Below are positions 21,446 to 29,804 of a stretch of DNA of 41,946 bases, piece after piece; position 1 is the first letter of the stretch, and each line of letters opens with the position of its first letter. Position numbers and translations under genes: made by a program. The notes under the pieces were generated by a model. The model did no database searches, was not told the origin of the DNA, and was given only the letters and a program-made list of their open reading frames with translations. Origin of the DNA: a virus; the IMG/VR virus record IMGVR_UViG_3300037508_000716, positions 1 through 41,946 of that record; one strand, given 5' to 3'.

Positions 21446-21811
21446 ATGTTATTAAAAGAATTCTTCGGGCGCAGCCTAAATCTCAAACAAGAATCAGATA
21501 AACCAGACGATAAAGGTATGCAAGATGACCTATTTTGGTATATATTAGATCACGACCGTCTACACAAAGACTACTTTATGCCTTTAGGTAAAAAGATTAA
21601 ACGCGAACAGAAAGAAGGTGTATTAGATAATCAAAAAATAGTTAAAGAGTTTATGCCTATGGTTAACAAAGGATGCATGGAATACTATAATAAAAAGAAA
21701 ATGAAAGGGCATCCTGAAAAGTTATTCAAAAAAGAAATGCGTGAAGAACTATGCCAACGCTTATATGACCACTATTATGAAGATCTAATGAAGGGCTCAT
21801 ATAAACTATGA
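21446..21811 (+). CDS. Conserved hypothetical protein (121 aa)
   Basis: A highly charged, helical 121-residue protein. It begins MLLKEFFGRSLNLKQESDKP and contains DDLFWYILDHDRLHKDYFMP and a Lys-rich C-terminal half with two Cys. It starts one base after the previous stop and overlaps the next gene by 4 bases (ATGA). The N terminus loosely matches the KEF-type start of the neighbouring genes. No function recognised. Confidence 0.65.
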   Translation: MLLKEFFGRSLNLKQESDKPDDKGMQDDLFWYILDHDRLHKDYFMPLGKKIKREQKEGVLDNQKIVKEFMPMVNKGCMEYYNKKKMKGHPEKLFKKEMREELCQRLYDHYYEDLMKGSYKL

Positions 21812-24800
21812 AACTATTAGATTTCATTAGACCAAGAAATACTTTACTTTCTGAAGGCGGCAACCTAGCAGCAGGGCAACCTGGATGGAAAGGTGACCCA
21901 GATGCAGGTGCTGCTCAGCAGATTAACCTACAGGTAACTAATCGTAGTGTAATAGTTCCTATACTTAATGACCTATTAGCAGGAATCAACGCAGCGTATC
22001 AAGCACAATATCAACAACCTCTATGGCATCCAAAACTGCTCAAGAGTCAAAAATTCTTAAGTGGCAGTAGTCTACACTTTTTCAATGTTAAAGGTATTCC
22101 CGACAAGGTATTTGTAGAAAAGAAACCCAAGGTAGGTGACATTGATACCATGGTGGACAAGGAAAAAGAAGCAGATTTAGAGAATTTTCTAAGTGCCAAC
22201 ATAAACAAGACCATGGGCCCTGGTAAACTGTTAGGGTTTCAACGTGGCAATGAACAATTCTCAAGCCTATGGGAACTACAAGACCCACCTATTAAGATAC
22301 AGATTGATTTAGAATATGTTAAGTTTGACAAGGATGAGCCTACACCATGGAGCCGTTTTAGTCATTCAAGTGATTGGAATGACCTACAAGCAGGAGTGAA
22401 AGGTGTATTTCATAAATTCTTGATACAGAGTTTTGCTGTATTGACTAAGAGAGATTTTATCCTACGCAAAACAGGTGGTCGTGGTAAGAATAAAACATAC
22501 ATAGATGTTCCTACATCAGATTCTATGTTTAGTTTTGCTGTGAGCAGTAAAGAAGGCGGGGGTCTAAGAGCTAAGTATACACCTGTTTTAAATCCTGTTA
22601 CTAATGAACCTGAAATGCAGGATGGATTACCTGTCATGCTAGCTCTGCCTACAACAGGTTACGAACAGGAAATAGGCAAAATGTTTCAAAGCCTATTTGG
22701 AGTTAAACTAAGTCCAAAGGCTGCTGAACAACTAGCAGAAAAGTTTTGGTCATTCACTGGCCTGTTAGATGTAATGAATAAGTTATTAGAGCCAGAAGAA
22801 AAAAGTCGTGTATTGGGTAGTTTCCTTAACAAGACATTTGGTCCGGGAGCTCAAGGATTATACAAGAATGATCCAGAACGTGATTCAGCAGAAAAGATGG
22901 CTGCTATAGAATTACTAATGAAGACCACAGGTGCTAAGCCACCAGAAGGTATGGACTTAGAACAGATGCGTCAAGAATATGTCCAAGCATACAAGGTAAC
23001 CGAAGAAGCATTAGACGAAGCGGATGATATTAACGCACCACCAAAGCCAAGTTTCGCAAGACAGGGTATTCCTCATCTTTACAATAGACTGCCCGACGGG
23101 CGTGTTAGTTCTACAGAAATGAAAGATGCGGATTTTGTAGAGTTAGTAAAAGAAATAGATGCAAATGGAGGCACACTGGATGGCTTCCCTGTAACACTTA
23201 AGATAGATGGCAAGGGCATTAGATTTGGTAAGGATGACGCAGGTCGAGCATTCTTTATGACTGACAAGATTGCACAACCTTTATACAGAGATAATGAAGG
23301 TTACTTTACTAACTTTGCAAGAGAAAAAGGTCAAGACGAAGCTAATATAGCAAGAGCACAAGGCTACGATGATATTTTATCTTCTATTATCAATAGTAGG
23401 TTAGTTGAAATGCTACCCGCAGACACTATTGTAACAGCAGAATTACTATATAACCCAATGGCTGAACAGACAAAAGATGGTCTTAAGTTTATTAAGATAG
23501 CATATGATCCTAAAAAACTAGGCAAGAAAATGACCATTGCTCCTATATTTGTTAAACAATTCAGTACAGGAGAAACTAGTCCTAATCAAGATAAGATATT
23601 AGAAAGGCTAGTAAGTGCTAGCGATAATAATATTAAAGTTGTTAGTAATAAGCTACAACAAAAAGGTATCAATGTTAAGCATATCATTGCACCTGTAGTA
23701 AACATGGACAGTAATCTCGTAGCCAGTCTCGGTGCTAGGGGGACAACTCCTGAAAAGACAGAGGCTAAACAGGTTATAGATCAAGCCAAGCAGGCTCTTA
23801 GTGATGCTATTATAAACAGTCCGAAGCTGAAAGGCATAGACAGTCTAGGTCCTAATAACGAAGGTATAGTTATTAACACTCCTAGTGGCAGGATGTTTAA
23901 GGTTACCAGCAGTCAGATGAAGGGCATTATGGCTAAACAAAACGTAGAACGTGCCATGGGCAGCACCAAACCAAGAACTGCCGTAGTTGCTATAGGTAAC
24001 TTTGCGGGACATAGAGGGCACGAAGATTTAATCAACTATGCTATAAAGAAAGCACAAGAACTTAAAGGAACACCTTTTGTTTATGTAGGTGCTAAGGTTG
24101 GACCAGATGATCCTATTGACGTAGAAACTAAAGTTCATACCCTACAAAAACTATTCCCAGGCGTTCAAATACATGCAGTAGAGAATCAAGTAGGGCCAGG
24201 GGGCGAAGTTACTGCCGGCAATCATATGAAAAAGATTGAGTATGAGTTAGTTAAAAAAGAACCATACTATAATAACATCGTTATTACCGTAGGTAGTGAT
24301 CAAGCAGAAAGTATGTCTAGTTGGGCAGCAGGCTTGCAAAAGCGATTCGCCAAGTTTCCGCCATTAAGTCATGTTAAGATTTCAGTAGATAGCTTGCCAA
24401 GAGGTGCAGCACAAGGAGGCAGCGATTGGAGCACAACAAGCCTACGCAATGCTTTAAGAACTATGCCAGAAGATCAGGCCTTTCAGGTCTGGAGCAAGGC
24501 ATATAATGTGCAAAAGCTAGGAGTAGATTGGATTAAACACTTAATGGATGTAGCGAGAAAGAATATGGGATTACAAAAACAACCCCAAGCACAACCTCAG
24601 CCTGTGGCAGAAAGACTGCTAAACGCATTAATAAAAACAAATGTAACTGAGAAAATGCTGCCTAAGTCTGCATTTGCAGGTAGTAATAAAAACAAGTTAG
24701 GACCTGCTGCCCATCTAAAAGGTAAAATGAAGCGTCCTGCACGTCAAGGTGACTTAGTAGGCGACGCTCAAGAAGATTTAAACCATCCATTAGACCAACC

Positions 24801-25047
24801 TGCTACACAGACTAAACCTGTAGTAAAACCTAATGCGCAACCTCGTCCAGGTGAACCTCCTGTAGTAGCACCTACTCCAGTAGATAGATTTGGTATAGAC
24901 AAACATGCAGGTAAAACATTCTTTGAACCTAAAATAAAACAAGGTCAAGTCCAAGAAAGAAAACTAGTTCCAATAAGCGAACATTATCAACGAACTATGG
25001 ATAAACTTATTACAAAGATTTTAGAAAATGAACTTAGAAGATCTTAA
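21808..25047 (+). CDS. Giant three-domain nucleotidyltransferase-like protein
   Basis: The 1079-residue protein appears to join three nucleotidyltransferase folds. (1) Near the N terminus, SGSS (85-88) and GDID (110-113) resemble the Pol-beta/MNT fold, a weak match. (2) In the middle, KIDG (465-468), AELL (544-547), EGIVI (685-689) and FKV (697-699) match motifs I, III, IV and V of ATP-dependent DNA/RNA ligases. (3) Further on, GNFAGHRGH (730-738) and STTSLR (875-880) match the HxGH nucleotidyltransferases. The N terminus, MKLLDFIRPRNTLLSEGG, resembles a T4 capsid-targeting peptide with a possible LSE-G cleavage site. The last ~160 residues are Pro/Gln/Lys-rich. The genes on both sides overlap it. 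Domain calls are from motifs only. Confidence 0.7.
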   Translation: MKLLDFIRPRNTLLSEGGNLAAGQPGWKGDPDAGAAQQINLQVTNRSVIVPILNDLLAGINAAYQAQYQQPLWHPKLLKSQKFLSGSSLHFFNVKGIPDKVFVEKKPKVGDIDTMVDKEKEADLENFLSANINKTMGPGKLLGFQRGNEQFSSLWELQDPPIKIQIDLEYVKFDKDEPTPWSRFSHSSDWNDLQAGVKGVFHKFLIQSFAVLTKRDFILRKTGGRGKNKTYIDVPTSDSMFSFAVSSKEGGGLRAKYTPVLNPVTNEPEMQDGLPVMLALPTTGYEQEIGKMFQSLFGVKLSPKAAEQLAEKFWSFTGLLDVMNKLLEPEEKSRVLGSFLNKTFGPGAQGLYKNDPERDSAEKMAAIELLMKTTGAKPPEGMDLEQMRQEYVQAYKVTEEALDEADDINAPPKPSFARQGIPHLYNRLPDGRVSSTEMKDADFVELVKEIDANGGTLDGFPVTLKIDGKGIRFGKDDAGRAFFMTDKIAQPLYRDNEGYFTNFAREKGQDEANIARAQGYDDILSSIINSRLVEMLPADTIVTAELLYNPMAEQTKDGLKFIKIAYDPKKLGKKMTIAPIFVKQFSTGETSPNQDKILERLVSASDNNIKVVSNKLQQKGINVKHIIAPVVNMDSNLVASLGARGTTPEKTEAKQVIDQAKQALSDAIINSPKLKGIDSLGPNNEGIVINTPSGRMFKVTSSQMKGIMAKQNVERAMGSTKPRTAVVAIGNFAGHRGHEDLINYAIKKAQELKGTPFVYVGAKVGPDDPIDVETKVHTLQKLFPGVQIHAVENQVGPGGEVTAGNHMKKIEYELVKKEPYYNNIVITVGSDQAESMSSWAAGLQKRFAKFPPLSHVKISVDSLPRGAAQGGSDWSTTSLRNALRTMPEDQAFQVWSKAYNVQKLGVDWIKHLMDVARKNMGLQKQPQAQPQPVAERLLNALIKTNVTEKMLPKSAFAGSNKNKLGPAAHLKGKMKRPARQGDLVGDAQEDLNHPLDQPATQTKPVVKPNAQPRPGEPPVVAPTPVDRFGIDKHAGKTFFEPKIKQGQVQERKLVPISEHYQRTMDKLITKILENELRRS

Positions 25048-25232: not shown

Positions 25233-25676
25233 ATGGAAAAACTACAACAAGCAGCCAAAGTAGCATTTGCAAGCACCTTTAGTTTCTATCTAAAGGCACA
25301 TAACTATCACTGGAACGTAGAAGGCAGTGACTTCTTAGAATACCATGACCTATTTGGTAAAATATACGAAGAAGTATATGGAGCAATCGATGACTTTGCT
25401 GAAAAAATACGTGCTATGGGAACTTATGTGCCTGCTAGTTTTGCTCGATTTGATATGCTAACTAAAGTTGAAGACGAAACAGAAATCATTCCTAAGGATG
25501 AAATGGTAAAACGTCTACTTGCAGATAATGAAAAAATGGTCGCTATACTTAAGTATACATTTCAAGTCAGTGAAGAACATCAAGAATTCGGCTTCAGCGA
25601 CTTCGTAGCAGGTCGTATGGATGCACATCGTAAACATGGTTGGATGCTGAGAGCAAGCCTTAAGGGACAGGAATGA
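25233..25676 (+). CDS. Dps/ferritin-like protein
   Basis: The 147-residue protein matches the Dps family: KAHNYHWNVEGSDFLEYHDL carries the ferroxidase His residues, and FGKIYEEVYGAIDDFAEKIR the Asp/Glu ligands. The spacing is H-x5-[DE] helix typical of starvation-type Dps. Dps proteins bind DNA without sequence preference and sequester iron against peroxide. Here it lies inside a cluster of putative head-packaged proteins, so co-packaging with, or protection of, injected DNA is possible but unproven. It overlaps the next gene by 4 bases (ATGA). Confidence 0.85.
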   Translation: MEKLQQAAKVAFASTFSFYLKAHNYHWNVEGSDFLEYHDLFGKIYEEVYGAIDDFAEKIRAMGTYVPASFARFDMLTKVEDETEIIPKDEMVKRLLADNEKMVAILKYTFQVSEEHQEFGFSDFVAGRMDAHRKHGWMLRASLKGQE

Positions 25677-26005
25677 GAGCTAAAGAATTTATTACTGAAC
25701 GTGTAAAAGAATTACACAAAAATGCAAAGCGCAGCCTTCCATTTGGTCGTCAGTTCGATGGCGCTGACCAATACTACAACTATTATAGATTAGGTATTAT
25801 GGCAGCAGGATCTCCGCATCATGAAGCGCCTACAGAAGGACCTGCTAAAGATTGTCCTACTGCATGGGCATATAGTGCAGCAGACGAAGAAATCATAAAT
25901 GATGCTGCTAAGAAGATGGGGTTTGGTAATAAACTTATTGTTCAACAGGGCAGTCTAGAACCAGAGGGCACATACGCTGTTAGCCCTGTGGCTAAATGGA
26001 AATAA
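25673..26005 (+). CDS. Paralog A, T4 capsid-targeting-like N terminus (110 aa)
   Basis: It starts MRAKEFITER, close to the T4 internal-protein targeting peptide MKTYQEFIAEA, with ITE-R as a possible prohead-protease site. A body with QYYNYYRLGIMAAG and the ending TYAVSPVAKWK follow. The next gene (26007) shares the start, a YRLG-type segment and the SPV-x2-W ending, so they are paralogs. Function unknown; an internal head protein is inferred. Confidence 0.65.
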   Translation: MRAKEFITERVKELHKNAKRSLPFGRQFDGADQYYNYYRLGIMAAGSPHHEAPTEGPAKDCPTAWAYSAADEEIINDAAKKMGFGNKLIVQQGSLEPEGTYAVSPVAKWK

Positions 26006-26006
26006 T

Positions 26007-26372
26007 ATGAGAGCTCGCGAATTCCTTGCAGAAAAAACACAAGGGAAACTAAGCCCTCGTCAACAACAGCCTACTAGAGGATTACATATATTCTCAGATG
26101 GCGAACGTTGGAATGGAGATTATACACAGTTTAGACTAGGTATGGCTCTGGCCTGCGCTAATGGAAAAGATCCTATAGACATGGATTGGAAAAGCTGGAT
26201 AGGTAAGGCTAAATCTGCACATCCTTATACTGAAGAAGAAGCAGAAATGTTAAAACAAGCATACAAGGCAGTAGGTGCAAACTATACCGACCTTAATCAC
26301 GGTGACTTAGAAAGTGAAGAAATAAACAGTGTGAATACTGTTAGCCCTGTTTCAAACTGGAATAAAAAATGA
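26007..26372 (+). CDS. Paralog B, T4 capsid-targeting-like N terminus (121 aa)
   Basis: It starts MRAREFLAEKTQGKLSPRQQ, again with an EFLAE core. The centre has FSDGERWNGDYTQFRLGMAL and the end VNTVSPVSNWNKK. It shares the overall layout with the gene at 25673. The start lies one base after that gene's stop, and its own stop overlaps the polyprotein-like gene by 4 bases. Function unknown. Confidence 0.65.
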   Translation: MRAREFLAEKTQGKLSPRQQQPTRGLHIFSDGERWNGDYTQFRLGMALACANGKDPIDMDWKSWIGKAKSAHPYTEEEAEMLKQAYKAVGANYTDLNHGDLESEEINSVNTVSPVSNWNKK

Positions 26373-29254
26373 ATAAAGAATTTAAAAAGATTGTAGAAGG
26401 TAAACAAACACGCTATGTTTTAGAAAGCGCAACAGGTGGTGCTACAAGTTTAGCAGCCGTTAGCAGCAATAGTGCAGCTATTCCAGGCATGCAGAGACGC
26501 TCTAGTTTATTAACACCAGAAGCAGAACAAAAGGTTCCTCAGAAGCCACGTCAGGGTCCATTACGTCAGCAAACAGGAGCAGGTAAGCATAAAGACAAAA
26601 AGCGTGACGATAAGCAAGGTAAGGCTAAACATAAAAAACCTTTTTACGAAGATCATGAAGTAAGTATGGCCAGTAATGAACTAAAGAGTATCTACGCAGA
26701 TGCTAAAGAATTACTCGCTCTAATTCAAAAATATGGTGAACAGGGCGACTTAGAAGCATGGCAACAGAGTAAGATTACTAAGGCAGCAGATTATTTAAAT
26801 TCTGTATTACAAAGTGTCGGAGGCGAACATACTGACCTAGACGAACTTAAAATGGACAAGGCAACCGATCAAGAAAAAGTAAAGTTTTTTAAGATGCAGG
26901 CAGATCGTTTTAAACAACAAGGGTTTCCTAAGGCAGCGGATCAAGCACATCAACAGGCTAAGTCGTATCAACCAAAAAAGGTTATGGAGTTAGAAAAGCC
27001 CAGTGGAACACTCTATATCATAGTATTAAAAGATAGAAGCGACGCTGTTCGTGTAGTAGGAGACTTTGGTACATTCCCAGCAGAAGTGCAGGCTCGTGCC
27101 AGCAAGGTAGGTATTAAAGACAAAGAGGGTCGTAAAGAGCGTCCATTAAAAGTTAACTTCCTAATGACTGATGCCAGCCAGGCCCTAGCAGAACTAGACA
27201 AAGCACTAGCAGATGTGGATTTTATCGGCAGTGAAAAAGCAGAGTTTGTATTTAAGAATTCTGCTTTTGAGACAGATATTGAAGCAGAGGTGCAAGAACT
27301 ACACGATCTAATCAGTAGTGGTGCAGACGAAAGATTTAAAAACTATGAAGAACCAGAAGTAGGTAATGAACCTGCTCGAAAATTAAAAGGTGTAGATCAC
27401 TACATCGTAGACCCTATCACAGGGAAAAGAAAACTAGTAAACAAACCAACCAAACCCGGTCGTCAACTAGGAGGACACGCTGTTCAACAGCCTAAAACAT
27501 ATACATATAGGTTACAGAGAACTGACCTAGCTCCTAAACTAAGAGATATGGGATTTAAGTTTGACGGCAACAATATTATTTTAAGTAAGCAGCAACGTGA
27601 CCAACTATTGGCCAAAATGGGCGACAAGCAGTTTGGTATGATATTTGGACAGGGTGACAGATTTGCAGAAGGATGGAAAGGTGGTATGGCAGGAGCTGGT
27701 ATAGGTGCTGCTCTAACACGTTCACCCAGTGGTGCTATGACTGGTTATAAAGTAGGCAGCGCCATAGGTGATATGGTAGGCAAAAAAGAAAGCGACCAAG
27801 ATAGCGAAGAACATATGAACCAAACTGTGAGCGATCTTCACAGAGAAATATATGGGTTTGGTCCAGGTAAACAGTTTGTCTACGAATGGCAAAAAATGAG
27901 CTATGATGAAAAGGCCAAAGTATATAATAAACTAAAACACTTAGCTGGTAAACTAGAAGAAGCAAGATACAGAAGAGATAACGACCAGTTTAGCTATGGC
28001 GGTCGTCCTGATCCTACAGATAGCATACCACAAGATTCAACTGCGGGTCAGGAAAAAGTGCAGGCTATAGTTGCTCAAATGAAACAAGGCACCATCAATG
28101 ACATACTGACACTTAAACCAGGTTGGGGTCGTAGTGACTTAGCATTGATGACAGCGACTGAACTGAATCAAATACTGAGAGACCTACAGGCTGAAAGGGT
28201 AAAGAAAGGTCAGTCAGAAGGCGCACAAAAGAAACCTAATGCTACTACTCGTCATTTAAGAGATTATCCAGTTAGTGATAAGGACGTGGCCAAGCCTGTG
28301 AAGAAACCTGAAAAGAAAAAACCAGAACAAGGTGTGGCGGAAGGCTCCGGTAACAATATTACATACAAGCAACAAAAAGGTAAGAACAAGTTTTCTGTTG
28401 AAATGTTAGTTGATGGCAAATCAGCAGGTATATTCCAGTATGATGCTAACTCAGGAAGAACCATAGTTGAACTTGACCCCGAATATAGAGGACAAAAATT
28501 GGGACAGCGACTTATATTAAAGGGTATCTATACTGCGGCAATGATGGGATTAGACTATGCGGAAGATGAGTCAAGAACACAAGCATTTGACAATGCTATG
28601 GATAGTTTGGCAGACAGCGGTTATATTGTAAATGATAATGAATACTGGTATGTTACTGATAAAGGTGAACAGTTTCTAAAGCAAGGTGTGGCGGAAGGCT
28701 CATTGGAAACTGACAATATGGTATCACATATTGGTCAGGTAATACAAAGCATTTATCCACGCGGTGGTGATAAAAATACATATATGAAACTGGTGGCCCA
28801 AGAAATGCCACGTATAGTGAAAGCCAATCCTAAACTGTTTAGACGAGCATTCGGTATGGCATATGATAGATTCTTTCATATAGACCAAGATGACGATTTT
28901 GATTATACTGATTATAGTATGCGTAAGGGTGAGCGTGGTATGGAGGAAGGTGTTGCTGGCCCTAAACAGTGTTGGCCCGGACATCGCAAAGTAGGAACTC
29001 AACCAGGCACAGGCAAGAATGCAGGCAAGCGTGTAAATGATTGTGAAAAAATTAAAAAAGAAGATACCTATATGGAATCATTATGGGACCAGCTGAACAC
29101 TGTAGTCAATGAAAAGGCACCCCCAGGCGACAAGTATGAGCGTATGGTTAAGCATATCAAAAAAGGATATGCTAAAGATGGCAAAATATCTGACAAAGAA
29201 CGCAGCATTGCCTATGCCACAGCATGGAAAGCAAAAAATAAAGCAAAAAAGTAA
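26369..29254 (+). CDS. 961-aa modular polyprotein-like protein with VAE-G linkers
   Basis: The protein looks modular. The N terminus, MNKEFKKIVEGKQTRYVLES, has IVE-G and VLE-S sites. A Lys/Gln-rich disordered region (about 50-90) and a helical domain follow, then an alpha/beta region (about 210-330). A glycine-zipper-like segment (about 432-470, WKGGMAGAGIGAALTRSPSG) comes next. A GNAT-like module (about 660-770, with YRGQKLGQRLILKG) is flanked by identical QGVAEGS linkers at 654-660 and 772-778. A CWPGHRKVGTQPGTGKNAGK motif and a conserved Lys-rich end (YATAWKAKNKAKK) close it. VAE-G resembles T4 gp21 cleavage sites. The last codons form a -1 frameshift site. Confidence 0.7.
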   Translation: MNKEFKKIVEGKQTRYVLESATGGATSLAAVSSNSAAIPGMQRRSSLLTPEAEQKVPQKPRQGPLRQQTGAGKHKDKKRDDKQGKAKHKKPFYEDHEVSMASNELKSIYADAKELLALIQKYGEQGDLEAWQQSKITKAADYLNSVLQSVGGEHTDLDELKMDKATDQEKVKFFKMQADRFKQQGFPKAADQAHQQAKSYQPKKVMELEKPSGTLYIIVLKDRSDAVRVVGDFGTFPAEVQARASKVGIKDKEGRKERPLKVNFLMTDASQALAELDKALADVDFIGSEKAEFVFKNSAFETDIEAEVQELHDLISSGADERFKNYEEPEVGNEPARKLKGVDHYIVDPITGKRKLVNKPTKPGRQLGGHAVQQPKTYTYRLQRTDLAPKLRDMGFKFDGNNIILSKQQRDQLLAKMGDKQFGMIFGQGDRFAEGWKGGMAGAGIGAALTRSPSGAMTGYKVGSAIGDMVGKKESDQDSEEHMNQTVSDLHREIYGFGPGKQFVYEWQKMSYDEKAKVYNKLKHLAGKLEEARYRRDNDQFSYGGRPDPTDSIPQDSTAGQEKVQAIVAQMKQGTINDILTLKPGWGRSDLALMTATELNQILRDLQAERVKKGQSEGAQKKPNATTRHLRDYPVSDKDVAKPVKKPEKKKPEQGVAEGSGNNITYKQQKGKNKFSVEMLVDGKSAGIFQYDANSGRTIVELDPEYRGQKLGQRLILKGIYTAAMMGLDYAEDESRTQAFDNAMDSLADSGYIVNDNEYWYVTDKGEQFLKQGVAEGSLETDNMVSHIGQVIQSIYPRGGDKNTYMKLVAQEMPRIVKANPKLFRRAFGMAYDRFFHIDQDDDFDYTDYSMRKGERGMEEGVAGPKQCWPGHRKVGTQPGTGKNAGKRVNDCEKIKKEDTYMESLWDQLNTVVNEKAPPGDKYERMVKHIKKGYAKDGKISDKERSIAYATAWKAKNKAKK
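28328..28347 (+). repeat. 20-bp exact direct repeat, copy 1 (QGVAEGS linker)
   Basis: caaggtgtggcggaaggctc recurs exactly at 28682-28701, 354 bases on, in the same frame. The two copies bracket the GNAT-like module, suggesting linker-mediated module gain, loss or exchange. GCG, rare among neighbouring Ala codons, is kept in both copies. Confidence 0.85.
28682..28701 (+). repeat. 20-bp exact direct repeat, copy 2 (QGVAEGS linker)
   Basis: Identical to 28328-28347. Recombination between the two would delete exactly 118 codons in frame and leave one linker. Confidence 0.85.
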
Positions 29255-29310
29255 GTGAGCAGGAGCCTCTAGCGCCTATACAGCCTACCACAGAACCCCA
29301 GGCTCCTGCT
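29245..29310 (+). promoter_or_regulatory. Predicted -1 programmed ribosomal frameshift signal
   Basis: The slippery heptamer A-AAA-AAG (29245-29251) is in the correct phase (GCA AAA AAG TAA) at the end of the 961-aa gene. A 6-base spacer (29252-29257, beginning with the stop codon) follows. Then comes a perfect 11-bp GC-rich stem, AGCAGGAGCCT (29258-29268) with AGGCTCCTGCT (29300-29310). This is the same heptamer that E. coli dnaX uses. The -1 frame stays open for 80 codons. All three expected elements are present at expected distances; efficiency is unknown. Confidence 0.75.
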
Positions 29311-29493
29311 AGTAAGAAAATAGTTAGGTTACCTAAACTAAGGCCAGACATGCCCTTAGATTATTGGGATGCTCGTTTTCAACAGGCAGATCCTAATCGT
29401 TATCATCAATTCAAAAACAAAACACCAGAAAAGAAAAGTCAAATGGCAGTGGCAGCATTGAAACATGCTAGAGAAAAGCCCAGAAAAGTTTGA
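29251..29493 (+). CDS. -1 frame extension of the 961-aa protein (80 aa), or small overlapping gene
   Basis: The frame is open from 29242, downstream of a TAA at 29239-29241, to TGA 29491-29493. There is no ATG before 29350. It codes for a protein-like sequence: a Pro-rich linker (EPLAPIQPTTEPQAPASKK), then LPKLRPDMPLDYWDARFQQA and a basic helix with TPEKKSQMAVAALKHAREK. After -1 slippage it would extend the modular protein to 1041 residues. The alternative is a separate 47-residue gene from ATG 29350, which has only a weak upstream AAGG. The missing start in the first third favours frameshift expression. Confidence 0.6.
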   Translation, partial: VSEQEPLAPIQPTTEPQAPASKKIVRLPKLRPDMPLDYWDARFQQADPNRYHQFKNKTPEKKSQMAVAALKHAREKPRKV

Positions 29494-29537: not shown

Positions 29538-29804
29538 ATGGGTAAAGCATTTGGAGCACCAGAACAGGCTAAAATTAAACAGATTGTAGCAGAAGGTGTG
29601 ACTGTCATGCAGGAAATTCAAGACCTAACAGAAGGATTGAATGATACAATCAAAGCAGTAGCAGAAGAACTTGACATTAAACCAAGCGTTATTAGAAAAG
29701 CAATTCGTATTGCACAGAAAGATCAATGGGATCAAGTATACAGAGAGTTTGACGATTTAGAGACTATTGTGGATATCAGTGGACACGCTAATATTAAAGA
29801 GTAA
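29538..29804 (+). CDS. DsbA-like double-stranded DNA-binding protein
   Basis: The start is ATG 29538, with AAGGAG at 29526-29531. The 88-residue helical protein contains GLNDTIKAVAEELDIKPSVI then RKAIRIAQKDQWDQVYREFD. That layout, including the LDIKPSVIRKAIRIA helix-turn-helix-like core and an acidic end, resembles T4 DsbA, which binds double-stranded DNA and is linked to late transcription. The match is by pattern and size, so moderate. It has a consensus promoter, consistent with strong early expression. Confidence 0.6.
   Translation: MGKAFGAPEQAKIKQIVAEGVTVMQEIQDLTEGLNDTIKAVAEELDIKPSVIRKAIRIAQKDQWDQVYREFDDLETIVDISGHANIKE

Follow-up and report, generated by a model that had tools for sequence, protein, structure and literature searches.

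The gene for a 961-aa modular protein in this phage DNA very probably ends in a programmed −1 ribosomal frameshift signal, by which a share of its product would gain a conserved C-terminal module. This reading rests on sequence comparison, without protein, ribosome-profiling, or reporter data, and both the actual slippage and its frequency are inferred. The preliminary description of the locus had proposed such a frameshift, and comparison with relatives supported the proposal: the signal was conserved and selected, and the −1 frame was found to encode a selected module.

The window, meaning the whole 41,946-base IMG/VR virus fragment that was analyzed, carries tail-fibre-like, clamp-loader, and family-B DNA polymerase genes. 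The named polymerases closest to that of the window shared about 51% identity or less with it and came from jumbo phages, Sinorhizobium phage Phosso being one example, and the longest related contigs reached 221 kb. The source is a large, uncultured T4-like phage of a group that probably consists of jumbo phages. In the contigs that were long enough, the shared gene order was a 121-aa gene, the modular gene, the module, a DsbA-like gene, and the DNA polymerase gene. The features of the locus in the window are as follows.

26007–26372, + strand: syntenic gene upstream of the modular gene; N-terminus MRAREFLAE followed by K, similar to a T4 capsid-targeting propeptide
26369–29254, + strand: 0-frame modular, "polyprotein-like" gene, 961 aa; N-terminus MNKEFKKIVEGKQTRYVLE followed by S; ends GCA AAA AAG TAA
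28334–28345, + strand: internal linker VAEG, copy 1 (EQGVAEGS)
28688–28699, + strand: internal linker VAEG, copy 2 (KQGVAEGS)
29245–29251, + strand: slippery heptamer A_AAA_AAG, in phase with the 961-aa gene
29251–29259, + strand: junction codons V-S-E, an inferred candidate prohead-protease site (hydrophobic-x-E)
29251–29490, + strand: −1 frame extension, 80 codons, stop at 29491–29493; predicted shifted product 961 + 80 = 1041 aa
29252–29254, + strand: 0-frame stop TAA, directly 3′ of the heptamer; kept in 33/33 loci of the shift-A form described below
29252–29257, + strand: 6-nt spacer TAAGTG, which includes the stop codon
29258–29268, + strand: 5′ arm of the stimulatory stem, AGCAGGAGCCT; AGCAGG unchanged across all 28 distinct signals
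29300–29310, + strand: 3′ arm of the stimulatory stem, AGGCTCCTGCT; CCTGCT invariant
29335–29490, + strand: conserved C-terminal module, L..D.W...F..ADP..Y.QFKNKTPEKK; predicted to form a small helical fold
29538–29804, + strand: syntenic downstream gene, 88 aa; classed by PHROG as a transcriptional regulator, with the position and size of a DsbA-like gene

The stem in the window began 6 nt past the heptamer, with 11 of 11 positions paired around a 31-nt loop. Its fold (−21.0 kcal/mol) was equalled by 5 of 200 dinucleotide shuffles, and the z-score of the stem against synonymous recodings of the −1 frame was −3.5. On recheck, the previously described coordinates of the heptamer, stop, spacer, stem, loop, and 80-codon −1 frame were all exact, as was the absence of ATG from the first 33 codons of that frame: the earliest ATG there is codon 34, and a stop in the same frame precedes GTA AGT by three codons. 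A ribosome arriving at GCA AAA AAG TAA would hold two lysyl-tRNAs on AAA-AAG with the stem-loop 6 nt ahead. A share of the ribosomes would slip one base back to AAA-AAA, bypassing TAA, and would read 80 codons from GTA AGT GAG to give a 1041-aa protein alongside the 961-aa one.

Relatives were sought in IMG/VR with the module query alone (41 loci), a profile search (73), and a DNA-pattern search (35), and the matches were collapsed into 59 distinct module loci, which took three forms: shift-A (33), shift-B (4), and fused (22). All 33 shift-A loci had A_AAA_AA[A/G], which fits the X_XXY_YYZ pattern in the 0 frame, directly before TAA (A_AAA_AAG in 28 and A_AAA_AAA in 5); next come [V/I]xEQE, a linker rich in proline, and finally the module. 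The shift-B loci (L078, L079, L081, and L101) had an A9G run, no EQEP linker, and no detectable stem (mean z −0.62); in L101, the 0-frame stop was TAG, one codon further on. In the fused form, found at 22 syntenic loci, the module was in frame and the signal was absent. The preliminary description had listed fusion of the two frames in related phages as a finding that would refute the frameshift. Such fusion does occur, but it does not amount to refutation, because the fused loci lack the signal and 33 others keep it; the module is therefore a genuine C-terminal part of the gene. When the window and related loci were surveyed together, A6[A/G] plus a stop occurred at 31 of 374 distinct ends of open frames of at least 120 aa; the −1 frame was open for at least 50 codons at 26 of these 31 ends, almost all of which were the shift signal.

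When fusion and shift were mapped on the polymerase tree, at least five changes of state were required, two of them forced by well-supported branches; this was a quick tree, to which recombination may add noise. A dsbA-anchored survey, which had no bias towards the module, covered 75 newly fetched loci and yielded 11 shifted and 10 fused forms. The remainder had no module by pattern, often because the contig starts past the relevant region; a few of these loci ended in more diverged fused modules. Since the loci are related, their counts do not represent independent events. In several loci (L004/L044/L114, L008/L047/L112, L055, and L079), the −1 frame extended beyond the module, and the segments past it, for example those resembling ENFADGKNPQDKGDSKRHGINTK...MAHWLANMKAGRAKK, also terminate other genes of these phages. 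No relatives of the module were found among INPHARED phages, and none were confirmed in GTDB genomes.

Selection on the signal was examined in a codon alignment of 31 of the shift-A loci. Both AAA codons and the GAG and CAG codons never varied (31/31), and the other two-fold codons of the module varied freely. For comparison, GAG is a minor codon in the polymerase genes (19% of Glu) and CAG accounts for 36% of their Gln; at the matching junction Glu of the fused loci, GAA was used 14 times and GAG eight times. AGCAGG was paired with CCTGCT in the minimum-energy fold of all 28 distinct signals, 5–6 nt past the heptamer and so within the distance of about 5–9 nt required for such a structure, with loops of varying length among relatives. 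The stem was more stable than synonymous recodings of the same peptide (mean z −2.85; p < 0.05 in 25 of the 28 signals), and the same test gave −0.05 for the downstream module and +0.19 for the fused junctions, which served as controls. Six of the 11 stem pairs never varied, and changes on both sides were seen at only two pairs, namely G-C to A-U in L055 (G-U in L132) and C-G to G-C in L077. As these compensatory changes are few, support for the stem comes from synonymous conservation and energy. The residues before the heptamer were exchanged between loci (WKAKNKAKK, GYKSHKAKK, VEELAKK, or LPEKNKSKK), with the signal and module kept. The persistence of the heptamer and stem while flanking codons drift, named beforehand as the sign of selection, was thus borne out: the upstream coding sequence is swapped and synonymous sites of the module are near saturation, while the heptamer, stop, GAG-CAG, and stem core are invariant. 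As judged from these alignments, the signal is a fixed joint that connects a variable modular protein to a constant tail.

Slippage of RNA polymerase on the A run, which would give mixed mRNAs with both frames fused in some of them, is an improbable source of the extended product in the window. Five loci do have A7 runs, and the four shift-B loci have A9. Because the A9 loci have neither a detectable stem nor the EQEP linker, slippage there may be transcriptional, and the A9G run without a clear stem may represent another way of joining the module to this gene. A six-A run ended by G, however, is kept in 28 of the shift-A loci, the window among them (seven A in L132), and a run of six is normally too short for strong transcriptional slippage. 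Moreover, the in-phase heptamer, the fixed spacing, and the stem are all kept, none of which is needed for slippage during transcription.

Synonymous sites of the module were near saturation (mean pS 0.73, mean pN 0.23). The median dN/dS was 0.15 among the unsaturated pairs, which made up about half of all pairs, and that between the window and its nearest relative was 0.013. By these estimates, the module is under purifying selection. Searches of Pfam and PHROGs with the module gave no match, and its predicted fold (mean pLDDT 71) had no meaningful match in the PDB (best E 6.5). Re-initiation or coupling past TAA, with the −1 frame as a gene in its own right, is a very unlikely route to the module. 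An ATG is present at the codon equivalent to codon 34 in 24 of 31 aligned loci, and AGGAG occurs within the 5′ arm of the stem, but no start codon lies consistently at a usable spacing from AGGAG, and VSEQEP is conserved far upstream of the codon-34 ATG. In five loci (L074, L027, L077, L075, and L121), ATG, GTG, and TTG are all absent from the −1 frame before the conserved Trp; without a start codon upstream of the core, re-initiation cannot make the module there. The in-frame fusion of the module in other loci also argues against a separate gene. Almost no room is left for reading the −1 frame as a relic in decay or an artefact of assembly, with TAA as the plain end of the gene. The sequence does come from a metagenome assembly, but 33 distinct loci, drawn from many independent metagenomes, share this heptamer and stop, and the module is under purifying selection; both findings already contradict such a reading.

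The modular protein that the frameshift would extend is probably a T4-type internal head protein; its role and packaging in the head are inferred without virion proteomics, and its head-packaged status is supported only indirectly. Genes upstream of the modular gene start with MRAxEF[IVL]xE in relative after relative, and these starts closely resemble the propeptide, ten residues long, that targets T4 internal proteins to the capsid. Consecutive small genes with such starts were observed at 25673–26372 of the window and at the same place in related loci, which suggests that genes for internal head proteins, possibly injected ones, are clustered immediately ahead of the DNA polymerase gene. In T4, capsid-targeting propeptides direct proteins into the head, gp21 cleaves these propeptides off at L/I-X-E, and Alt has a C-terminal propeptide (PMC9026906). 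An N-terminal motif of the type YVLE followed by S/T was kept in the modular protein. The C-terminal segment of the 961-aa protein was similar to short hypothetical (DUF6321) proteins from Synechococcus phages. Elsewhere in the window, a 1079-aa protein (21808–25047) has a nucleotidyltransferase-like domain (PHROG cytidyltransferase) and an N-terminus resembling LLSE followed by GG; it is perhaps another packaged enzyme.

Candidate protease sites were found at the internal linkers and at the junction. VAEG occurred 60 times across the family against 0.7 expected, and several VAEG linkers shared one conserved DNA sequence. The string CAAGGTGTGGCGGAAGG, which encodes QGVAEG, was observed at 28330–28350 and 28684–28704 of the window and in 54 of 139 loci, some of them overlapping; this linker looks like a recombination point for the exchange of protein modules and also a prohead-protease site. 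At the start of the module, hydrophobic-x-E was present in 59 of 59 loci, as VSE, VIE, IKE, VKE, or IDE in the shifted forms and as LAE, VAE, VLE, VSE, MVE, MLE, or MME in the fused forms. Since V/I in shift-A is forced by the heptamer and TAA, only the E, together with the fused and shift-B forms, provides independent evidence. Compared with the L/I-X-E of gp21, the candidate sites were mostly V-x-E and some L/I/M-x-E. An S77 T4-type prohead protease (PF03420) was encoded in eight of 13 related fragments, including the contig of the nearest relative.

On the simplest model, the module would serve as a C-terminal tag of an internal head protein, releasable at V-S-E by the prohead protease, and the frameshift would set the share of tagged copies; these are inferences, with cleavage, packaging, and the ratio untested. 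A further step, which we offer only as a speculation that is unlikely to hold, is that the frameshift sets the fraction of a modular effector polyprotein bearing a C-terminal, protease-removable capsid-targeting tag, a single gene thereby giving one form retained in the infected cell and another that is packed into the head for injection into the next host.

A_AAA_AAG is the site used in E. coli dnaX (tau/gamma), where a simple 3′ stem-loop likewise lies a few nt downstream, and it is among the most shift-prone heptamers in E. coli (PMC5009743). In contrast to dnaX, the slip in the phage would lengthen the protein rather than shorten it, the stop directly follows the heptamer, and the gene is unrelated. 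The phage signal also differs from the dnaX type in having no conserved upstream Shine-Dalgarno stimulator: such an element was present in some clades only and absent in the window, and elements at or below −5 kcal/mol were found in 39% of loci versus 14% of control positions. The frameshift of tail assembly chaperone genes (lambda gpG/gpGT type) similarly leads, in tailed phages, to a minority product that is extended at its C-terminus. A tail assembly chaperone pair was considered for this locus and rejected, as neither the protein nor the module had a chaperone match in Pfam or PHROGs, and the gene has internal-head-like genes on one side and the DsbA-like and DNA polymerase genes on the other, with no adjoining tape-measure gene.

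Most of the well-known frameshifts in phages affect tail assembly chaperone or major capsid genes. Frameshifts are known in head genes, namely the major head protein of phage A2, the capsid protein of Listeria phage PSA (+1), and T7 gp10, each likewise extending a head protein at its C-terminus; in view of A2 and PSA, this kind of signal is already known. In contrast to these, the gene described here encodes not the major capsid protein but a modular, probably processed internal protein. It is like the gp21-processed T4 internal proteins and Alt in the starts of neighboring genes, the hydrophobic-x-E sites at linkers and junction, and the S77 protease of relatives, but no frameshift was described for the T4 proteins in the literature searched. 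No earlier report of the present signal was found in a literature search limited to open-licence papers. What is new is the class of gene involved, the fact that fused and shifted forms interchange, and a junction that resembles a protease site.

The gene that carries the signal is hypervariable and probably encodes an internal head protein; it belongs to T4-like phages that are abundant, uncultured, and probably jumbo, and the extension is overlooked by standard annotation. Fused and shifted relatives constitute a natural experiment on why a two-product ratio is kept. If the module is a packaging tag, the frameshift would be a testable means of controlling the dose of injected proteins.
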